Shown one piece after another: positions 2,523 to 23,546 of a DNA stretch of 23,546 nucleotides. The stretch's first letter is position 1, and each line of letters starts with the position of its first letter. The stretch spans positions 1 through 23,546 of the IMG/VR virus record IMGVR_UViG_3300020430_000816; one strand, given 5' to 3'. Both the position numbers and the translations under genes were made by a program. A model generated the notes under the pieces. That model searched no databases. It saw only the letters and a program-made list of their open reading frames with translations, and was not told the origin of the DNA. Origin of the DNA: a virus.

Positions 2523-2551
2523 ATTATATCAGGATCCCAGATCCTGGTCAA
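2523..2551 (-). promoter_or_regulatory. Host-type sigma-70 promoter, TTGACC-N17-TATAAT
   Basis: On the minus strand TTGACC (2551-2546) is followed by exactly 17 nt and a perfect TATAAT (2528-2523). The -35 element and spacer lie inside the last codons and stop of cobS. The predicted start point near 2516-2518 falls at the base of the adjacent GGGAGG hairpin. It would drive the DUF3310-like gene, gp45 and the genes beyond as early or middle genes using host RNA polymerase. Confidence 0.65.
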
Positions 2552-3614
2552 CATTTACTTGCTCACCAGTGGCAGTGAGATCAAAATCTGCATCAACCTT
2601 GTCGTAGAGTTCCAGGAACGCTTGCTTAGTATCGTCATCAAATCGGTTGATGCACACTTGCATTGCCTTCTCCTTATTGCCAAAGATTTCATATGCTCTG
2701 ACAATGTGAACCAAACGACGAGTGCTGATTACTTCCTCAATACCACCGTCATAGAAGGTCTTACGGATGATATCTGCCCAGTCAACCAAGCGGTGACAGA
2801 ATTCTTCATCGCTACAGACTTTAGAGAGAATACTCTTCTCAATAGAGACGGTAGGGTAAGACTGCTCAAAGGTTACAGGGAATCGCTCAAGGAATGCTTC
2901 ATTCAACACATTGGTGCCAATAAAGCGACCATCATCAGAACCCTTACCTTTAGTATTGGCAGTGGCAAAGATTTGGAATCCTTCAGCAGGTCGAACAAAC
3001 CTACCAATCTTCTTCAGAAACACCCCCTTACCCTCAAGAATGGATTGTAGGCAGAGGATTTTGTTGCTAGCCAAGTCAACCTCATCGAGGAGCAAGATTG
3101 CCCCACGTTCGAGTGCTTCAATGACAGGTCCGTTATGCCAAACAGTTGCCCCATCGACAAGGCGAAACCCACCAATAAGATCGTCTTCATCAGTTTCAAT
3201 AGTAATGTTGACTCGAATCAATTCTCGTCCGAGTTGAGCACACGCTTGCTCAACCGACAGCGTTTTGCCGTTGCCAGATAGTCCAGTAATGAACGCTGGA
3301 TAGAATAGACGGGACTGAATAATTTTTTTAACATCGCTGAAATTGCCAAACTTGACGAAGGTATCATCTTTCGCGGGGATAAGGTTTTGCTCAACTGCAG
3401 GCATAGCAGCAGGTGCCTGATAATCCTGTTCGAGTTTCTCAGTGATCGTCAGATTCCAACGACCACGACCAACCTTACAATCAGAAATTTTGTTGGTCAC
3501 CGTCTGATAGTTACAATCATTCATAGCACACCAGGCACGAATGTCTGCCGCTGTGACAGAATCTCCGTAGAGATCCTGAAGGGAATTCATAATGCCTTCT
3601 TTGGAGAGACCCAT
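2529..3614 (-). CDS. cobS: CobS-like AAA+ ATPase (MoxR-type, cobaltochelatase subunit homologue)
   Basis: 361 aa. CobS is the AAA+ motor that, with CobT, drives cobalt insertion into the corrin ring by CobN; the family belongs to the wider MoxR group that remodels or loads metal proteins. An N-terminal region of about 70 residues looks like a small helical domain, followed by an Ala/Pro linker. Walker A is at 111-118 (GLSGNGKT), the ETDEDDLIGGF signature follows at 140-150, and Walker B is at 173-180 (ILLLDEVD); the sensor region reads FATANTKGKG. CobS is a frequent auxiliary gene of T4-like cyanophages. The second in-frame ATG (3590) has AAAGAAGG just ahead of it and may be the true start. 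The CobT-like partner is directly upstream on the same strand, which supports a working pair. Confidence 0.88.
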   Translation of the reverse strand: MGLSKEGIMNSLQDLYGDSVTAADIRAWCAMNDCNYQTVTNKISDCKVGRGRWNLTITEKLEQDYQAPAAMPAVEQNLIPAKDDTFVKFGNFSDVKKIIQSRLFYPAFITGLSGNGKTLSVEQACAQLGRELIRVNITIETDEDDLIGGFRLVDGATVWHNGPVIEALERGAILLLDEVDLASNKILCLQSILEGKGVFLKKIGRFVRPAEGFQIFATANTKGKGSDDGRFIGTNVLNEAFLERFPVTFEQSYPTVSIEKSILSKVCSDEEFCHRLVDWADIIRKTFYDGGIEEVISTRRLVHIVRAYEIFGNKEKAMQVCINRFDDDTKQAFLELYDKVDADFDLTATGEQVNVDQDLGS

Positions 3615-3682: not shown

Positions 3683-5815
3683 TCAAGCGACTAGATCAAT
3701 AAACTCATTGAGAACTCGCTTGTTCATTTTTTTAGTGCGAAGACTCTTCACAAAAGCACTCTTGATCTGAGACTTAGTTGCATCTTCCTTGACTTCAAAA
3801 CTATTGTCTTGAGCTAAGGAAGTAGCAGAGATGGCAAAATAAGAGTGGTATCCAGAATTGGTAATAGTAAAAGTGCGTTCTTTCCTCCAACCAGCATGAA
3901 TACGATCATGCTCATCATTCCATCGACCATAGTAGCGAGCGATAAATGCATGGGCATCACGACCTTCAAGAACACGGATACCAATAAAGTTGGTGTCTTG
4001 AAACTTGTCTCTGAGATGATTCAACAGAGTATCAGTTAGATCATACCAATTGCCACCCAAAGCATATGTAGTTCCCAGCTTACGGTCACGAAGAATGCAA
4101 TTCATAGATACCTGACGAATACCCAGGTATGGTTCATTCTCCCAATGACGCTGAACCATTTTATGATACTTCAACGGAGGTGCTTCACCATCAGTGAGGA
4201 TGACACATTGAACTTTTTCCAGACCATGTTGCTTCTTGAACTGAGGAATGATCTCATGAAGACAAACCAGAGTGTCATTTAAGGGAGTTCCAGACAAAGA
4301 CAGACCGTTAGGAATACTGTAGAAGGTGTAGTAGGTACGACTAAATCCTTCAGCAACACGGAAGATAGTTTTCATCTGATCATCAAGTTCTTTCGCTTTG
4401 GTTTTACTAGAGAACATATTCATCAGAGAGAACTGCTCATAAAGATGAATTACACCATCCCGCTTTTTATATGGAGTTGGTGGAAAAACAGGAACACGGT
4501 CACCGTTATGATTAATCTCATATTTGATCTTGGGATAATCCGAGGTGAATGCATAAACATCAAAAGGAATATTGACTTTTTTACAGAACCAAATCAAATT
4601 ATAGAGTTGTTTAATTGTGTCCGTCAGAACATCACACATAGATCCAGACCAGTCCAAAATAAAAATTAGACCATGGTTCTTACCGTCAGGAACAACAGTA
4701 ACCTTTCGGAATAGATCTTCGTTGTACTTATAACTATGAAGTTTAGAGCAGTCTAGAACACCAGTTCTTGATGTCGTAGCACGAGCGTATGCACTAGCAG
4801 ACTTGCGACATTCAAACTCCTTCACAAGATAATTAACTTCCTTCTGTGCGGACTTCTTGAATTCAGCGTATCTCTTATCTACATCATAGAAGAACTCTGG
4901 TTTAGTATCACTCCAAGCATCAGGAACATGCTGATACACATCCTCATTAGAGATGATGACAGAATCCAGATTTACTTTGGGAAGTTCCAAATATTGATTT
5001 TCAATATCATTCTCGTCAATAAGATCTTTGATGGCATCCTCAAAGGACTTCATCGTATTCACATCAATATCAGAGTCATCACCACCAGAGTTTACATTGG
5101 AGGAAGATTCCTGAATATCATGATCGACAGAATCGTCGGATCCTTGAACGGATTCGCTGGACGAGGGTTCTGATTCTCCCTCCTCACTATCTGACTCCTG
5201 TGATTCGGGGGAAGACCCACCATTATTCGGCTGTAGTTGTACGTCTGAAGGGGACTCTTGTTGTTGCTGTTCATTTTTGCAGTACTTATAAATTTCTTCT
5301 GACGCATCAAGAACTTCACTGAAGGTCTCACAGTCGCGAACCATGAGAAGAAGTTTTTCTTCTTCCTCAGTAAAAGGAATATCCTCATAATTACCAATCT
5401 TGCAGTAAAGATTGATTTTGTCTGCAAGGTTGAACGTTGACAGGTCTTCGTCCTCAATGGAGAAGAAGTCTTCCGCTGCCAACTCTTCATATCCTCGGTA
5501 GAAGGTTTTAGAGAGACCAGCATACCGACGCTTCATCATCTTCTCAATACGAGCGTCTTCGACAACGTTGACGATCTGTGGTGGGATCTTACGATCCTTG
5601 ATCCAATCTTCATCTGGTGTATATAGGGCGTGACCAACTTCATGACCCACCAGAAGGTCATACACATTGTTAGATGCCTTGTTCCACTGAGGGAGCGTCA
5701 GCACGCGAGTATGGACATTGAACTGAGCAGTATCTACAGCGCGATGCTCAACCACCAGATCTTCAGTGGCAAGCAGTTTGGCAAGTTGTCCTTTGACTTC
5801 GTGGTTGATAGTCAT
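3683..5815 (-). CDS. CobT-like protein: HExxH metallopeptidase-like domain plus acidic linker plus VWA domain
   Basis: 710 aa in three parts. Residues 1-180 carry HEVGH at 58-62 and NVVEDARIE at 83-91, the pattern of a gluzincin-type zinc site (two His plus a downstream Glu) as also seen in CobT-family proteins. Residues 182-251 are a Ser/Glu/Asp/Gln-rich low-complexity linker. The C-terminal half is a von Willebrand A domain with MIDAS motif DWSGS at 388-392 and a downstream TDGE at about 541-544. CobT is the partner of AAA+ CobS, and the gene pair here is transcribed cobT-like then cobS. By family knowledge the pair could stimulate cobaltochelatase, but no CobN large subunit is in the window, so it could equally be a MoxR/VWA chaperone or metal-insertion machine. 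Whether the HExxH is proteolytic is unknown. Confidence 0.85.
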   Translation of the reverse strand: MTINHEVKGQLAKLLATEDLVVEHRAVDTAQFNVHTRVLTLPQWNKASNNVYDLLVGHEVGHALYTPDEDWIKDRKIPPQIVNVVEDARIEKMMKRRYAGLSKTFYRGYEELAAEDFFSIEDEDLSTFNLADKINLYCKIGNYEDIPFTEEEEKLLLMVRDCETFSEVLDASEEIYKYCKNEQQQQESPSDVQLQPNNGGSSPESQESDSEEGESEPSSSESVQGSDDSVDHDIQESSSNVNSGGDDSDIDVNTMKSFEDAIKDLIDENDIENQYLELPKVNLDSVIISNEDVYQHVPDAWSDTKPEFFYDVDKRYAEFKKSAQKEVNYLVKEFECRKSASAYARATTSRTGVLDCSKLHSYKYNEDLFRKVTVVPDGKNHGLIFILDWSGSMCDVLTDTIKQLYNLIWFCKKVNIPFDVYAFTSDYPKIKYEINHNGDRVPVFPPTPYKKRDGVIHLYEQFSLMNMFSSKTKAKELDDQMKTIFRVAEGFSRTYYTFYSIPNGLSLSGTPLNDTLVCLHEIIPQFKKQHGLEKVQCVILTDGEAPPLKYHKMVQRHWENEPYLGIRQVSMNCILRDRKLGTTYALGGNWYDLTDTLLNHLRDKFQDTNFIGIRVLEGRDAHAFIARYYGRWNDEHDRIHAGWRKERTFTITNSGYHSYFAISATSLAQDNSFEVKEDATKSQIKSAFVKSLRTKKMNKRVLNEFIDLVA

Positions 5816-13297: not shown

Positions 13298-14095
13298 TTA
13301 CATATGCTCCTGCATTTTTTTAATTAAGTGGTCAGCAATCTGCTTATATCCATCAGCTTTTGGATGGAATGAATATGGATTTAACATGTTATGGTCAACG
13401 GCATAAGCAAAATCATCGACACACCATGATGGCACTAATGATTTTTTTAATACTCTATCATTCTCTACAATCACTGCTAACATATCTCTTCTTATTCTTT
13501 TTTGATGATCAAAAAAGTTTGAAAGTTTTACGTTGTAATTAAATGAACAAAACGAGTCATACCAAAAATTTTTAACTCCCAACATTTTAAAATATTGGTT
13601 CCAGTGAAAAAACTCAAGCTCTAGTTCCTTTACTCTAGCTATCTCATTGTATGAGTATTTATTCAAAACTCCAGCAATCTGATCGATTGCAGTTCCTTCA
13701 TCCTGATCAGGAATAATTGGATCATCATTTACAGTATTTAAAAATATATGTCTGTAAGCGTTTTCTTCGTTTACCCACAAGTCATACCTATTGACAGAGG
13801 TTGTCCCCCATAACACATATACTTGTACACCCGATTTGAGTATGTTTTTGAATTTAGTAGATGAAAAAAATTGTTTTGCTAATCTAAATTGCTTATCATT
13901 ACTACTACCACCACAACCAAGATTTATATTGTCAAAATCAAAATGTTCAGAAACATGTCTTCTCCAACCATTCTTCCAACATATCTCTGGGTCTAGATAA
14001 ATTCTCTCATATTCTTCTTCGGTCATACCATCTTCATATGCAGAACCTTGACCAAAAGTCCAACTATCACCAAAAGTTATCAATATATCTTTCAT
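13298..14095 (-). CDS. SGNH/GDSL-type hydrolase (probable esterase), accessory
   Basis: 265 aa. The protein begins MKDILITFGDSWTFGQGS; the block I motif FGDSW puts the nucleophile at S11. Block II appears as NLGCGGSSN (about residues 58-66), a block III-like VLWGTTS follows, and the block V histidine is H244 in SFHPKADGYKQIADHL. The usual Asp three residues before that His is a Tyr here (Y241), so the catalytic triad may be a Ser-His pair or use another acid. Family members remove acyl or acetyl groups from lipids and polysaccharides. No signal peptide is visible. It has its own CTAAATA late box 21 nt upstream and is an accessory gene between capsid and tail genes, so a virion or cell-surface polysaccharide role is plausible. 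Confidence 0.8.
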   Translation of the reverse strand: MKDILITFGDSWTFGQGSAYEDGMTEEEYERIYLDPEICWKNGWRRHVSEHFDFDNINLGCGGSSNDKQFRLAKQFFSSTKFKNILKSGVQVYVLWGTTSVNRYDLWVNEENAYRHIFLNTVNDDPIIPDQDEGTAIDQIAGVLNKYSYNEIARVKELELEFFHWNQYFKMLGVKNFWYDSFCSFNYNVKLSNFFDHQKRIRRDMLAVIVENDRVLKKSLVPSWCVDDFAYAVDHNMLNPYSFHPKADGYKQIADHLIKKMQEHM

Positions 14096-17946: not shown

Positions 17947-18108
17947 TCAGTCTTCAACCTCACCTTCACCATCAAACATCCCGTTTGATACCTCAGGTCT
18001 AAGTGCTTCAACTCGTTCAGCAGTCTTTGCATACAGTAAGTCTTTGATCTTATCAGAGACCTCAGATGGAGAAGCGTCACTGATAACCATATCTAAAATA
18101 TCGTCCAT
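17947..18108 (-). CDS. Small prohead core-type protein (53 aa, gp67-like by position and pattern)
   Basis: 53 aa from the ATG at 18108: begins MDDILDMVISDASPSEVSD, ends FDGEGEVED. The pattern of a short N-terminal helix, then IKDLLYAKTAERVEALRPEV, then a hydrophobic-MF and an acidic tail resembles the small core proteins encoded between gp20 and gp21 in T4-like phages (gp67/gp68). In T4 such proteins are part of the prohead core and are cleaved by gp21. A longer reading from 18177 would run through the promoter region and is unlikely. A CTAAATA box ends 23 nt upstream. The name is an inference; the reading frame itself is well supported. Confidence 0.72.
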   Translation of the reverse strand: MDDILDMVISDASPSEVSDKIKDLLYAKTAERVEALRPEVSNGMFDGEGEVED

Positions 18109-18131: not shown

Positions 18132-18146
18132 TATTTAGGATAAATA
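18132..18146. promoter_or_regulatory. Back-to-back late promoter boxes (TATTTAGGATAAATA)
   Basis: This 15-bp near-palindrome reads CTAAATA toward the minus strand (18138-18132, 23 nt before the 53-aa gene) and ATAAATA toward the plus strand (18140-18146, 18 nt before the glycosyltransferase ATG). Both resemble the T4 late box TATAAATA. It sits in the 56-bp gap between the two divergent genes and contains no other promoter-like element. It probably fires both the head genes and the accessory cassette at late times. Confidence 0.6.
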
Positions 18147-18164: not shown

Positions 18165-19091
18165 ATGGATCTTCCACATATTTACTATACTAATGTAACT
18201 AATAAGACAGAACGTAGGAAATACATGGAGAGTCAGTTCCAGACTCTGGGATTGAAGTATACAAGAATACCAATGGAACCATTTTCAAAGGATGGGACTT
18301 TTTTTGAATGGTATTTAGATGACTTAGAAGGAACATACTCGGAAGATACTTCTCATTACATAAACATAGTCTCTGCAAGTCTATTGTTATTCTTTCAAGA
18401 ATGGATTGATAGTACTAATGATGAATTCATGATCTTGATGGAAGACGATTATGATTTATCACTTGTTAGTCGCTGGCACTTTGAATGGGGTGAACTAATT
18501 GAACGTCTTCCGATTGGGTGGGATTGTTTGCAGTTAGGATTCGAGACATCAAAGGTAATACCTTTTTATTTGCATCCCACAAAACCAGAATATTCTTTGG
18601 GTCCATGCTTATTAAACAGAGACTACATAAAAAAACTTCTTAGTTTACATTATCCCAACGGCAAGTTTAAATTCGACTACAATATTGCCAATGCAATTTA
18701 CATTGATAGGGACTCTGGTATTCATGATGGACTAAGATATGAAGGAACTTCTGGTGGTCCAGATTATTTTATCAATCAATCTGGTTGTGGTTACTCTCTA
18801 CCACTAATACCAATCAATCCATACTTTACTGGTATTAGTCATATTGGAGTGTTAGAGAAACGCTCTTGGGAACCAAAACTTAGTTTTGTAAAATGCTATG
18901 AGGCATATCATGAGTGGTGGTGCTATGATAGAGATAAGTTCACACTGGACGATTTTTTCACCTATAATAAGGACACTGATGTTCTGATGGAGAGAGATAT
19001 CTCCAGATGGAACGATAAATATTTTCACGACTTGGCTATAAGAAAGAATGAAGGTTTACTTGTTCCAACCTCAGCACGAGATTTTAATTAA
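18165..19091 (+). CDS. Family 25-like glycosyltransferase (LPS/glycan type)
   Basis: 308 aa from the ATG at 18165 (a TTG one codon earlier is less likely). The N-terminus HIYYTNVTNKTERRKYMESQ matches the opening of family 25 glycosyltransferases (a strand, then a DR/ER-R helix), and FMILMEDDYDLS at about 89-99 carries the acidic EDD motif typical of the nucleotide-sugar site. These enzymes transfer sugars in lipooligosaccharide synthesis. No membrane segment is visible. It is first in a plus-strand cassette, under a late-type box. Its last 44 nt overlap the first radical-SAM gene, so its C-terminal tail (about LVPTSARDFN) is encoded inside the overlap. The acceptor is unknown; a viral structural protein or host glycan are options. 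Confidence 0.78.
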   Translation: MDLPHIYYTNVTNKTERRKYMESQFQTLGLKYTRIPMEPFSKDGTFFEWYLDDLEGTYSEDTSHYINIVSASLLLFFQEWIDSTNDEFMILMEDDYDLSLVSRWHFEWGELIERLPIGWDCLQLGFETSKVIPFYLHPTKPEYSLGPCLLNRDYIKKLLSLHYPNGKFKFDYNIANAIYIDRDSGIHDGLRYEGTSGGPDYFINQSGCGYSLPLIPINPYFTGISHIGVLEKRSWEPKLSFVKCYEAYHEWWCYDRDKFTLDDFFTYNKDTDVLMERDISRWNDKYFHDLAIRKNEGLLVPTSARDFN

Positions 19092-20775
19092 AGGGACAAA
19101 AAATTATTGGTTACCATATGCTGCTGGTTGTGTCTGGAGTTATGCAAAACAACAGATACCAGAACTTGAACTGGGAGAAATCGTATTTAAAAGAGAGCGT
19201 ATTGATAAAATTCTTGATAGAGTAAAAGACCCCGATGTTTGTGCATTCAGTACATACATTTGGAACGAGCAGTATAATTTAATTCTTGCAGAAGAGATTA
19301 AAAAAAGATATCCAAAATGTATTATTGAATTCGGTGGACCGCAAGCAACAAGAGGTCTAGTAGATAGGGAGTATGTAGATACTGTTTTACTTGGGGAAGG
19401 TGAGCAAGCATTTGTTAACTTGATCCATAGGATAAAGAATGGATACCCAATACCTCCAGTTTACGAGCGACTTCAACTAAAGAACTTGAGCTATGCTAGT
19501 CCATATGAATCTGGAATCTTTGATGATATTGTAAATCAATATCCAGAATATAATTGGGCAACTTTGGTTGAGTCTACCAGAGGTTGTCCCCATCACTGTA
19601 CTTTTTGTGATTGGGGAACTTGGATGAACAACATCAAGAAGTTTGATCTTGATCAAGTGGAGAGAGATATTAATTGGGCGTCCACACATCGAGTTGGATT
19701 CTTAATGCTGGCAGATGCAAACTTTGGAATATTTGCGGAGAGGGATCTTAAAATTGCAAAGATGTTGAGAAAGGCAGCAGACCATCCAGATGCAATCATT
19801 GATGATCTGACTGTTCAGTATACAAAAAACTCTACAGATATTGTCTTTGATATTAGTGAAGCACTTGGTCCATATGATAGGCGTGGTGTGTCTATGAGTG
19901 CTCAGTCCATGAATGGACCCACTCTTCGCGCAATCAAAAGACGAAACAACAAAAAACATGCTGAGTTTGTAAAGAAAGCAAGGGAACGTAACTTAAATGT
20001 ATATACTGAATTAATTTTAGGTTTACCTGAGGAAACTTTAGAGTCCTGGAAGGATGGTATATGTCAACTTCTTGATTACGGACAAGACAGTATTGATGTT
20101 TGGTTTTGCCAAGTGTTTGGTAATACTGAGTTGAATACTAATAGAGATAAGTATGGTATTAGCGTTGTCAACGCTGAGGACTATGTGTCATTTACAAATA
20201 AAGAAGATAATGTAAAAGAGGTTGTTGAGATCGTCAATAAAACAAATTCAATGACTACAGATGAAATGATAGAGGCATATCTTTACTCTTGGATGATCAT
20301 ACAATTGCATATTAATGGATACTCTGAGATTATCTCAGATTATTTGAATAAAGAGTTTGGAGTTAGTTATCGTAAGTTTTACGATAGTATATTTGTAACA
20401 TTGGGTAAGGACTATAGTTCTCTTGGAAAGCACTTTAGAGAGTTAAAAGAACGAGTATCTAGTTATCTAAAGAATGGAAAAATTTTGTCGGATAAAGATA
20501 CTGGGCATACTCTTGAATTGAGCATGGGAACTGACTTTGAATTTTTCTGGTCTCACAAAGAAATTGTCATCAATTACATTAGGAACTGTTGTGGGATGTT
20601 TATTCCAAATGATATTATGGCACTACAAAGAAGTTACATATATAATCCAAATGTAGAATACCCTCAACATGTTGGAGAATATTTGGTAGATAATGCTAGA
20701 ATGGAAGAAGAGAGAGATGATATCTGGGTTTTAAAAAGAAAAAATCTTCTAAAAAATAAAATCACAGCACTATGA
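19048..20775 (+). CDS. Radical SAM protein A with B12-binding-like N-terminal domain
   Basis: 575 aa. A cobalamin-binding-like Rossmann domain occupies about residues 1-140 (CAFSTYIWNEQYNL, IIEFGGPQAT, VLLGEGEQAF). The radical-SAM core follows, with the [4Fe-4S] motif CPHHCTFC: C180, C184 and C187. Later core strands include MLADANFG and ELILGLPEET. The C-terminal 200 residues form an extra domain not recognised. Radical-SAM enzymes cleave S-adenosylmethionine to make a 5'-deoxyadenosyl radical; the substrate here is unknown. The classical corrinoid-ligand motif DxHxxG is not seen. The start is supported by the paralogue downstream, which opens similarly (LYxFQPQ...YWLPY), although it forces a 44-nt overlap with the glycosyltransferase. 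It ends in an ATGA overlap with the paralogue. Confidence 0.88.
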   Translation: MKVYLFQPQHEILIKGTKNYWLPYAAGCVWSYAKQQIPELELGEIVFKRERIDKILDRVKDPDVCAFSTYIWNEQYNLILAEEIKKRYPKCIIEFGGPQATRGLVDREYVDTVLLGEGEQAFVNLIHRIKNGYPIPPVYERLQLKNLSYASPYESGIFDDIVNQYPEYNWATLVESTRGCPHHCTFCDWGTWMNNIKKFDLDQVERDINWASTHRVGFLMLADANFGIFAERDLKIAKMLRKAADHPDAIIDDLTVQYTKNSTDIVFDISEALGPYDRRGVSMSAQSMNGPTLRAIKRRNNKKHAEFVKKARERNLNVYTELILGLPEETLESWKDGICQLLDYGQDSIDVWFCQVFGNTELNTNRDKYGISVVNAEDYVSFTNKEDNVKEVVEIVNKTNSMTTDEMIEAYLYSWMIIQLHINGYSEIISDYLNKEFGVSYRKFYDSIFVTLGKDYSSLGKHFRELKERVSSYLKNGKILSDKDTGHTLELSMGTDFEFFWSHKEIVINYIRNCCGMFIPNDIMALQRSYIYNPNVEYPQHVGEYLVDNARMEEERDDIWVLKRKNLLKNKITAL

Positions 20776-22523
20776 GAAACTTATACATGTTCCAACCGCA
20801 ATATGCGGTAGAAGTTAGAAAGGAAGACACGTATTGGTTACCTTATAGTGTCGGTTGTCTTTGGGCATACTGCCTTCAATATGGTGACGTTGCTAGTGGA
20901 TATCACTTAAAAGATTTTATTTTTAAAAGAGAGAATCCTGAAGAACTTGTTGCACGATTAGTAGATCCAGTAGTTTGTGCATTCAGCACATACATTTGGA
21001 ATGAGCAATACAACTTGCACGTTGCAAAATTGATTAAAGAGAAATATCCATATTGTGTTATTGAATTTGGTGGTCCTCAAGCAACTGAAAAACTTGCAGA
21101 GTATGACTTCATTGATTGTATTATTATATCGGAAGGAGAGCAATCATTCTTGGATCTTCTTAGGAAGGTAATGATGCAAGAACCATATGAAAGAATATAT
21201 CGTAAAGAAAGAATAGAAGATCTAGACTTTCAAAGTCCATATCAACTGGGAGTGTTCAATAAAATAGTTGCAGATAATCCCGATGTTCTTTGGTCTATGA
21301 CGATAGAGACTAATAGGGGTTGTCCTCACCGATGCACTTATTGTGACTGGGGTGGAATGACATACCAAAAAGTTAAGCACTTTGAGTTAGAAAGAATTCA
21401 ACATGATATTGACTGGGCAGCAAGGAATAATGTTGGATTCATATTTAATGCGGATGCAAACTTTGGAATGTTCAAAGAAAGAGATCTTGAGATCGCCAAA
21501 CTATTTCGCGCTGCAGCAGATCGAGGTAAATTAGAAGCGATTAATGTTCAGTATTCAAAAAACTCAACAGAAGTTATTTTTGAGATTGCTCAAGTTCTCG
21601 GTGACATTAGTAGGGGTGTGACTCTCAGTGTTCAAAGTATGAATGAACCAACTCTTAAATCTATTAAGAGAAAGAACATGAGCATCAATAAAATATCTGA
21701 GCAGATTGAGAAGAGTAAAAAATATGGAGTTAAAACATACACCGAACTAATTTTAGGGCTTCCAGAAGAGACCTTGGATTCCTGGAAAGATGGATTCGCA
21801 CAAATCCTTGAATGTGGTCAACACGAATCTATTGACGTTTGGTTCTGTCAAATGTTTGGTGACACTGATTTGAATAGTGAATTATCTAGAGAAGTTTATG
21901 GGATCAAAACTATCAAAGCAGAAGATTACATGTCTTTCAGTAAAGATGAACATGATATTAAAGAAGTCATTGAGTTAATCTCAGAGACCAACACAATGAC
22001 TAATGATGAACTTATTGAAGCATATCTTTATGGTTGGTTAATCATTCAATTTCATATTGCTGGATACACTCAACTCGTTGCAAAACATCTCAATAGTCTT
22101 GGGATGGGGTATAGGTCTTTTTATGATAAATTGTTTGGTTATATAAAAAATGATCCTGGTGTTATTGGAGATCACTACAGAGAAATCGAAAGATCAGTGT
22201 CTCACTACATGAAGACTGGAAAAATCTTAGATCAAGGCAAGCACGGACACACTCTTCATGCTGCAAGTTTTGCCTTTATGTTCAGAAATAAAGAAAGTAT
22301 TTTTAATATTTTATCTGACTTGAATCTGGTTACTGATGATACTTTAAAACTTCAAAGAGCATTTATCTTTGATGAAGATACTGAGTACCCCTATCAACTA
22401 GAGTGTGGAACTGATAAGTACAATGTGGATACTGAGTTCAAAGAATTCGATAGAAATGACCCTCACACCGTATTCATTTTACGGCGCAAGGGTCTTCTAA
22501 AAAATCAATTGTCTAAAATTTAA
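20772..22523 (+). CDS. Radical SAM protein B, tandem paralogue of the upstream gene
   Basis: 583 aa. It is colinear with the upstream protein from end to end: LYMFQPQ...YWLPYSVGC, VCAFSTYIWNEQYNL, IEFGGPQAT, GCPHRCTYCDWG (cysteines C184, C188, C191), ADANFGMF, TYTELILGLPEET, WKDG, IDVWFCQ, EAYLYGW, GHTLH and a basic C-terminus RRKGLLKN. The duplication therefore covers all domains, including the unrecognised C-terminal one. No DxHxxG is visible here either. Translation is coupled to the first copy by ATGA. The stop codon shares TTAA with the stop of gp20 on the other strand. Keeping both copies intact suggests different substrates or a heteromeric enzyme. Confidence 0.88.
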   Translation: MRNLYMFQPQYAVEVRKEDTYWLPYSVGCLWAYCLQYGDVASGYHLKDFIFKRENPEELVARLVDPVVCAFSTYIWNEQYNLHVAKLIKEKYPYCVIEFGGPQATEKLAEYDFIDCIIISEGEQSFLDLLRKVMMQEPYERIYRKERIEDLDFQSPYQLGVFNKIVADNPDVLWSMTIETNRGCPHRCTYCDWGGMTYQKVKHFELERIQHDIDWAARNNVGFIFNADANFGMFKERDLEIAKLFRAAADRGKLEAINVQYSKNSTEVIFEIAQVLGDISRGVTLSVQSMNEPTLKSIKRKNMSINKISEQIEKSKKYGVKTYTELILGLPEETLDSWKDGFAQILECGQHESIDVWFCQMFGDTDLNSELSREVYGIKTIKAEDYMSFSKDEHDIKEVIELISETNTMTNDELIEAYLYGWLIIQFHIAGYTQLVAKHLNSLGMGYRSFYDKLFGYIKNDPGVIGDHYREIERSVSHYMKTGKILDQGKHGHTLHAASFAFMFRNKESIFNILSDLNLVTDDTLKLQRAFIFDEDTEYPYQLECGTDKYNVDTEFKEFDRNDPHTVFILRRKGLLKNQLSKI

Positions 22524-23546
22524 ACTATCTCGGGTGCTTCTGTGCTCCCTCCATCTTTTACTCCATCAAGATCTGGTTCTTGAATTGGAGCTCCCAAATC
22601 ATCTCCTCCAGGTTCCATTGGAGCTCCAGTTGCAGGATCAATAGGTGCATTAGGATCAGGAATAATACCTGCTTCAATTTCCCTCTTAATCAGTTTATCC
22701 TGTTCAATAATCTCTTCATCAGATTGACGGAGAATCTTACGACGGACATAATCCTGAGAGTAATACTTACCAATATAAGGTTCTGCAGTTGCAGCAATAT
22801 TGAGTCTCTCTGTCATCAACTCAGCATCTTTGAGTTCAGAGAAGTGATTATCATAAAGGAAGTCATATTGAATATGCTCAGACATTGTGTGCCAATCTTC
22901 TGGAGACACAATGTTCTTAAGAATAAGTTGAGTCTTGAGAAGATCGTTGAACATTGCAGAGAATCTCTTTCTCAATCTTCCAACAAACTTAGTGAACTTC
23001 AGTTCATCTCTTAAGATTTCAGAAGAACGACCAAGATTAAATCCTTCCTGACCACCAATTCTAGATGTAGGAACGTTCAAAGAACGGTAGAGTTTTTCTT
23101 GGAAGTATTTGATATCGGACAATTCTCCAAGATTCTGTCCGCCAGGAAGAGTTGAGATTTCTGTTCCACGACCACCTTCACGTCTAGGAAGCCAGAAGTC
23201 TTCAAGCATACTCATATACTTCTTATCATCACGGATTTCTCCAGTGTTTGCATCGTATACAAGTTTGTTACGATAACGCATCATAACATCGCGAAGGTAT
23301 TGCTCTGCTTTCATTTTGGGCAGATTACCAACGTCAATATAGAAAATCCGACGCTCAGGCGCTCTACTTAAACGGTAGATAACCAAAGAGTCTTCAATCA
23401 TACGAAGTTGATTAAGACCTTTAATTGCTTTGTGTAGATACGATAAAGTTAGATTCTTATTACGATCTACGAGACCAGATGTGCAATAAGTAATTGAATC
23501 TTTTGCAAACTTGATACCTTGAGATGCCTGATTAGATCCTCTATTT
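22520..23546 (-). CDS. 20: Portal vertex protein gp20, N-terminal part beyond window edge
   Basis: About 341 C-terminal codons are visible; the frame is open to the right edge, so the start is outside (T4 gp20 is 524 aa). The portal is the dodecameric ring through which DNA is packaged and to which the tail joins. Recognisable stretches are LHKAIKGLNQLRMIEDSLVI, YRLSRAPERRIFYIDVGNLP, MLEDFWLPRREGGRGTEIST and FQEKLYRSLNVPTSRIG, all typical of T4-like portals. The C-terminal tail is Pro/Gly/Asp-rich. An ATG at 23401 lies within the protein and is not the real start. Its stop overlaps that of the convergent radical-SAM gene in TTAA, with no terminator between them. Confidence 0.95.
   Translation of the reverse strand, partial: NRGSNQASQGIKFAKDSITYCTSGLVDRNKNLTLSYLHKAIKGLNQLRMIEDSLVIYRLSRAPERRIFYIDVGNLPKMKAEQYLRDVMMRYRNKLVYDANTGEIRDDKKYMSMLEDFWLPRREGGRGTEISTLPGGQNLGELSDIKYFQEKLYRSLNVPTSRIGGQEGFNLGRSSEILRDELKFTKFVGRLRKRFSAMFNDLLKTQLILKNIVSPEDWHTMSEHIQYDFLYDNHFSELKDAELMTERLNIAATAEPYIGKYYSQDYVRRKILRQSDEEIIEQDKLIKREIEAGIIPDPNAPIDPATGAPMEPGGDDLGAPIQEPDLDGVKDGGSTEAPEIV

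Follow-up and report, generated by a model that had tools for sequence, protein, structure and literature searches.

What might the genes of a sugar transferase and of two radical-SAM enzymes be doing among the head genes of an ocean phage, on the opposite strand? The question is posed by the window, a 23.5-kb virus record that was analysed over its whole length and represents an uncultured ocean phage of the T4-like cyanophage type.

Organisation of the locus

The evident genes outside the cassette are encoded on the minus strand, and the plus-strand trio predicted amid them (GT, rS1 and rS2, Table 1) was recovered with the expected flanks and overlaps, the latter being 44 nt between GT and rS1 and an ATGA between rS1 and rS2. 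A further overlap, of 4 nt, joins rS2 to gp20, where the 3' ends of the two converging genes meet. The placement of the cassette between the portal gene and the gp21-22-23 block agrees with the Pfam and PHROG assignments of the flanks, with a gp68-like gene intervening; the gp68-like label is positional, and PHROG 14164 has no known function. Beyond this gene lie those of the gp21 protease, the gp22 scaffold and the gp23 capsid protein, all on the minus strand. The window also carries a gene of an NAD-dependent sugar epimerase, two genes resembling cobS and cobT, and an SGNH/GDSL-like hydrolase gene, of which some related contigs have a divergent counterpart (41-64% identity) and others have none at that place.

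Table 1. Features of the cassette and of other genes in the window
Feature	Position	Strand	Remarks
cobS-like gene	2529-3614	-	PHROG 249
CobT/peptidase-like gene	3683-5815	-	PHROG 459, weak 5298
SGNH/GDSL-like hydrolase	13298-14095	-	adjoins gp23
gp68-like small head-locus protein	17947-18108	-	start codon towards the cassette; PHROG 14164/2088
Late-type promoter box	18140-18146	+	ATAAATA; 18 nt 5' of the GT start codon
GT, glycosyltransferase	18165-19091	+	308 aa from ATG
rS1, predicted cobalamin-dependent radical-SAM methylase, variable slot	19048-20775	+	575 aa
rS1 B12-binding domain	19192-19422	+	Pfam match aa 49-125; W72 aligned to TokK W76
rS1 radical SAM core	19570-20052	+	C180-C184-C187; W189 = TokK W215 equivalent
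rS2, predicted cobalamin-dependent radical-SAM methylase, constant slot	20772-22523	+	583 aa
rS2 B12-binding domain	20934-21158	+	Pfam match aa 55-129; W76 aligned to TokK W76
rS2 radical SAM core	21306-21788	+	C184-C188-C191; W193 = TokK W215 equivalent
Hairpin within the last part of the rS2 coding region, towards gp20	22458-22494		15-bp stem, -16.7 kcal/mol
gp20 portal, C-terminal part	22520-23545	-	extends past the window edge; PF07230, E 4e-140

The late-type box that had been noticed ahead of the cassette is conserved: ATAAATA occurs near the first cassette ORF (-90 to +30 nt) in 25 of 31 distinct related loci, even where the downstream gene differs, and lies outside the swapped part of the cassette. 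By number alone the motif is not significant in the window (8 observed, 5.8 expected). At the other end, hairpins in the end of rS2 are stronger where rS2 and gp20 converge directly (median -11.3 vs -6.5 kcal/mol, p = 0.017, 6 vs 31), and it is possible that the hairpin serves as a terminator shared with gp20, as if evolved within the gene.

The two radical-SAM proteins

The original prediction of two radical-SAM paralogues of about 580 aa holds (the proteins share 47% identity), and their class can be sharpened: rS1 and rS2 are very probably cobalamin-dependent radical-SAM methylases of the TokK/CysS type. Both give a Radical_SAM Pfam match above the cutoff, preceded by an N-terminal B12-binding domain, whose own Pfam matches (E 1.3e-5 and 0.0065) are below the cutoff and which was confirmed by the fold to TokK. 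Searched individually against solved structures, rS1 matched TokK with E 7.4e-64 and CysS with E 1.3e-39, and rS2 matched them with E 5.2e-74 and 1.1e-36, while a profile built from 19 viral homologues gave 7e-120 and 7e-66. The AlphaFold model of rS2 (pLDDT 88, pTM 0.86) was closest in Foldseek to TokK (E 2e-43, TM 0.87), with CysS at TM 0.78. In TokK, W76 lies at the lower face of the cobalt and W215 bridges SAM and cobalamin (PMC9692996); W75 of CysS is the tryptophan at the lower cobalt face, as W76 is in TokK (PMC9692996, PMC12846815). The motif Cx3Cx2C-x-W-G is kept in all 151 viral homologues of at least 500 aa, a set in which some loci are counted twice, and [YF]xWN in 150 of them. The enzyme class is thus well supported, by profile and fold matches to TokK and CysS and by conservation of the motifs and cofactor tryptophans. 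This type also names the chemistry, C-methylation, which rS1 and rS2 would be expected to perform, judging from their sequences.

The 19 viral proteins group together in a maximum-likelihood tree (SH-aLRT 99), and their group adjoins Clostridia arrays and Streptomyces proteins; the nearest cellular relatives are only about 31-36% identical. A viral clade with such distant cellular relatives indicates an old viral family and not a recently acquired host gene. Within it, the rS2 orthologues make up one clade, and the slot-1 proteins fall into several older clades. The Clostridia loci L103 and L106 contain 3-6 tandem TokK-like radical-SAM genes, accompanied by other B12 radical-SAM genes and one resembling GT2.

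The glycosyltransferase

The first gene had been described as a family 25-like glycosyltransferase, of which the predicted enzyme class stands and the family is weakly founded. Its product matches the PHROG 2835 glucosyltransferases across residues 2-181 (E 2.3e-25), and GT25 was rejected as a firm label, with a Pfam score (PF01755) of 13.6 bits (E 0.064) against a gathering cutoff of 24 bits; homologues in phage isolates are annotated as GT25. The best Foldseek matches of its AlphaFold model were GT-A enzymes, among them the PBCV-1 capsid glycosyltransferase, mimivirus R655 and bacterial beta-1,4-galactosyltransferases, with TM of only about 0.3-0.4 on a model of pLDDT 73, and the GT profile found no match among solved structures. 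A metal-site motif, EDDYD, at residues 93-97 is kept in 49 of 49 homologues. Assignment to PHROG 2835 and, putatively, to the GT-A fold is therefore firmer than that to family 25.

Distribution and composition of the cassette

Two scans of IMG/VR yielded 75 distinct contigs with these radical-SAM genes, which adjoin gp20 and/or gp21/gp68 in 67; seven contigs carry a relative elsewhere (L042, L043, L046-L049, L079), and one stretch is too short to place. The family can thus also sit away from gp20, as at L079 (4837-6651), a T4-like contig where an rS2 relative (65%) stands beside a helicase-like gene and one of a 2OG oxygenase. Among 29 distinct cassettes with both flanks (including L034, assigned with its GT at the contig edge), the order was GT-rSAM-rSAM in 21, rSAM-rSAM in 5, rSAM-GT-rSAM-rSAM in 2 and GT-rSAM in 1. 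The last case, L030, combines a GT of the window type (92%) with rS2 and lacks the slot-1 gene, and several relatives lack GT, leaving rS2 as the only constant member. The three genes, then, are usually found together and not apart, and the idea of a single coherent trio is right as to the shared locus and wrong as to its fixity, GT and rS1 being swapped, lost or duplicated. The GT-less cassettes L015, L017, L019 and L074 apparently begin with a small plus-strand ORF, the stop codon of which overlaps the rS1 start.

Most relatives have, between rS2 and gp20, a 220-aa gene that is absent from the window (L003:5352-6014, minus strand, and equivalents). Searches of Pfam, PHROGs, PDB (best E 0.3) and INPHARED gave no match to it, and an H-x-D ... 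H ... R pattern suggests that its product may be a 2OG-Fe(II)-type oxygenase.

No close relatives of rS1 or rS2 were found in INPHARED (about 50,700 phage records); the only two matches, both weak, come from unannotated gut phage records, neither of them a cyanophage, and were not accepted as radical-SAM proteins of this kind in isolated phages. The gp20-gp21 intervals of isolates S-SCSM1 and S-SKS1 are short. A search for gp21 led to 67 IMG/VR intervals, all of which include a gp68-like gene; four of them hold the cassette, and the others range from 166 bp to 4.2 kb, several containing same-strand genes of virion or tail-fibre-like proteins. Such variation in length and gene content marks the gp20-gp21 interval as a general cargo site, and a place among head genes is thus not enough to suggest a capsid substrate. 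The literature on radical-SAM and cobalamin enzymes of cyanophages yielded no description of the cassette; as had been supposed, no described system of this composition was found, nor an already characterised phage pathway to which the radical-SAM proteins would belong.

Selection and exchange of modules

Purifying selection acts on GT, rS1 and rS2, whose dN/dS values against relatives are 0.03-0.21, and the cassette is almost certainly a real, selected unit. The L025 contig has a gp21 identical to that of the window (100%) and an rS2 identical by 93%, while the GT and slot-1 proteins are only 62% and 53% identical; in L037 the corresponding values are 100, 93, 48 and 47%. Across 21 cassettes, GT distances correlate with those of rS1 (r 0.66; partial Mantel r 0.63 given gp20 and gp21, p 0.0005) and more weakly with those of rS2 (partial 0.49), whereas rS2 distances track gp20 (r 0.63) and gp21 (r 0.65). 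GT and rS1 are thus exchanged together as a unit, and rS2 is constant and follows the head genes. Plain linkage could explain the co-variation of GT and rS1, since the genes overlap, and for this reason the co-variation supports a joint function of the two without proving it.

Possible function of the cassette

The reading that we favour, at roughly even probability, is that of a late-expressed, exchangeable glycan-tailoring cassette at the gp20-gp21 cargo site, its sugar substrate and virion target both being presumed from context. A conserved late promoter would provide for late synthesis of a GT-A glycosyltransferase and two cobalamin-dependent radical-SAM C-methylases; the methylases would act on a sugar or sugar-linked group, which GT would attach to a glycan, most likely one on the virion being made at that time. 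The core enzyme would be rS2, with GT and rS1 as a swapped specificity module.

A glycan substrate is favoured because of the sugar genes found in four settings. One is the window itself, with its gene of an NAD-dependent sugar epimerase. The 107-kb relative L037 (L265 and L266) carries, away from the cassette, five tandem GT genes of the same family, clustered with genes of a sulfotransferase, a DegT aminotransferase, a 2OG oxygenase, a UDP-sugar dehydrogenase and a tryptophan halogenase; an epimerase gene and a GT11 gene make up part of a second glycan locus there. A GT cluster of similar kind, including a radical-SAM gene of another type, is present in isolate S-SCSM2R. In a sister group of cellular relatives (L104-L118), several genes stand beside those of GHMP kinases, aldo/keto reductases, a dTDP-sugar isomerase and a nucleotidyltransferase. 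Against a glycan substrate, the closest cellular relatives, in Clostridia and Streptomyces, lack a clear sugar operon, the GT-less cassettes and the one without rS1 show that strict coupling is not required, and the characterised TokK and CysS enzymes use antibiotic precursors, not sugars.

This last point leads to a small-molecule, antibiotic-like tailoring of the kind performed by TokK, ThnK, CysS and KedN5, which the closest characterised relatives, being natural-product enzymes, and the Streptomyces proteins among the nearest cellular relatives would suit; it appears very unlikely, as no carrier-protein domain (PF00550) occurs in eight cassette contigs (38-107 kb, all fragments) and no NRPS/PKS or beta-lactam genes were seen. 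Some radical-SAM enzymes, such as Mmp10 and MgmA, C-methylate side chains on methyl-coenzyme M reductase, and by analogy rS1 and rS2 might methylate amino-acid side chains of a virion protein that GT would glycosylate. The position and probable expression of the cassette with the head genes, and the presence of MgmA (9ccb) among the Foldseek matches, would fit such a modification, but MgmA reached TM 0.46 as against 0.87 for TokK, the cassette lacks a conserved substrate-peptide gene and the interval is a cargo site of general use, so that we regard it as unlikely.

It is also rather unlikely that the target is the LPS of the infected cell, altered so as to exclude superinfection, despite the cellular relatives in surface-sugar clusters and the documented LPS clusters of cyanophages such as P-SSM2, for which exclusion through host LPS has been proposed (PMC2984593); a late-type promoter would act late for exclusion, and the cassette has neither a transporter nor a lipid-linked step. 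As for DNA hypermodification, in which GT would glycosylate and the radical-SAM proteins methylate modified bases, it seems extremely improbable: the promoter is late-type, and no thymidylate synthase/hydroxymethylase family was found in the cassette contigs, which are fragments. DNA glucosylation is familiar in T4-like phages, but the T4 DNA glucosyltransferases are GT-B enzymes and the cassette GT is predicted to be GT-A.

A bolder reading, somewhat less likely than not, would be that virus-encoded cobalamin radical chemistry builds C-methyl-branched sugars on virion glycans and is diversified as GT and methylase modules are swapped between otherwise near-identical phages, with cobS gaining a possible consumer. 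If the methylases do act on glycans, the cassette would offer a virus a cobalamin-dependent route to unusual sugars, and close relatives a way to differ in surface chemistry. The cobS-like gene of the window was considered as a specific partner of the cassette and dismissed, since every complete cyanomyovirus is reported to have cobS (PMC2984593), and finding the gene here thus proves nothing; with a phage enzyme that would consume B12, a link to the retention of cobS by cyanophages becomes a testable idea only. In marine Synechococcus and Prochlorococcus without BluB, the corrinoid produced is pseudo-B12 (PMC5816740), and either corrinoid might serve rS1 and rS2, because a tryptophan fills the lower cobalt face in TokK and CysS.

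Comparison with known systems

The carbapenem C-methylases TokK and ThnK share with the cassette enzymes the domain order, the Cx3Cx2C motif, the W76 and W215 equivalents and the full-length fold (TM 0.87 at 26% identity). The cassette enzymes differ in being viral, tandem and shorter (575-583 vs 681 aa) and in having no beta-lactam or carrier-protein genes around them, and the sequence alignment ends ahead of the C-terminal substrate region. CysS, the iterative O-alkyl C-methylase of cystobactamids, has the same architecture and the tryptophan under the cobalt (Trp75/W76), but identity is about 20% and its gate residue, Trp271, corresponds to Q in rS1 and rS2. The KedN5 family of methylcobalamin-dependent C-methyltransferases (NF033712) is the best NCBIfam model for both proteins; membership was nevertheless rejected, as the scores of rS1 (142 bits) and rS2 (177 bits) are far under the curated cutoff of 700 bits.

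Among phage systems, the glycan/LPS clusters of P-SSM2 and S-SCSM2R combine a homologous GT family with oxidative enzymes but lie elsewhere in the genome, and the radical-SAM protein of S-SCSM2R is annotated as SkfB/NifB/PqqE-type and was not matched by rS1 or rS2 in the INPHARED search. The hyperplastic region of cyanomyoviruses, between g15 and g18 (PMC2984593), is likewise variable cargo within a structural module; the cassette cannot be assigned to it, differing in place (gp20-gp21) and in its reverse orientation. The enzyme type and the idea of phage cargo are thus already known, and the viral family, the locus and the combination are new: methylases that are very probably of the TokK type, known from antibiotic pathways, form here a deep, purely viral clade, strongly selected in common ocean phages and hosted at a fixed cargo site adjoining the capsid genes.
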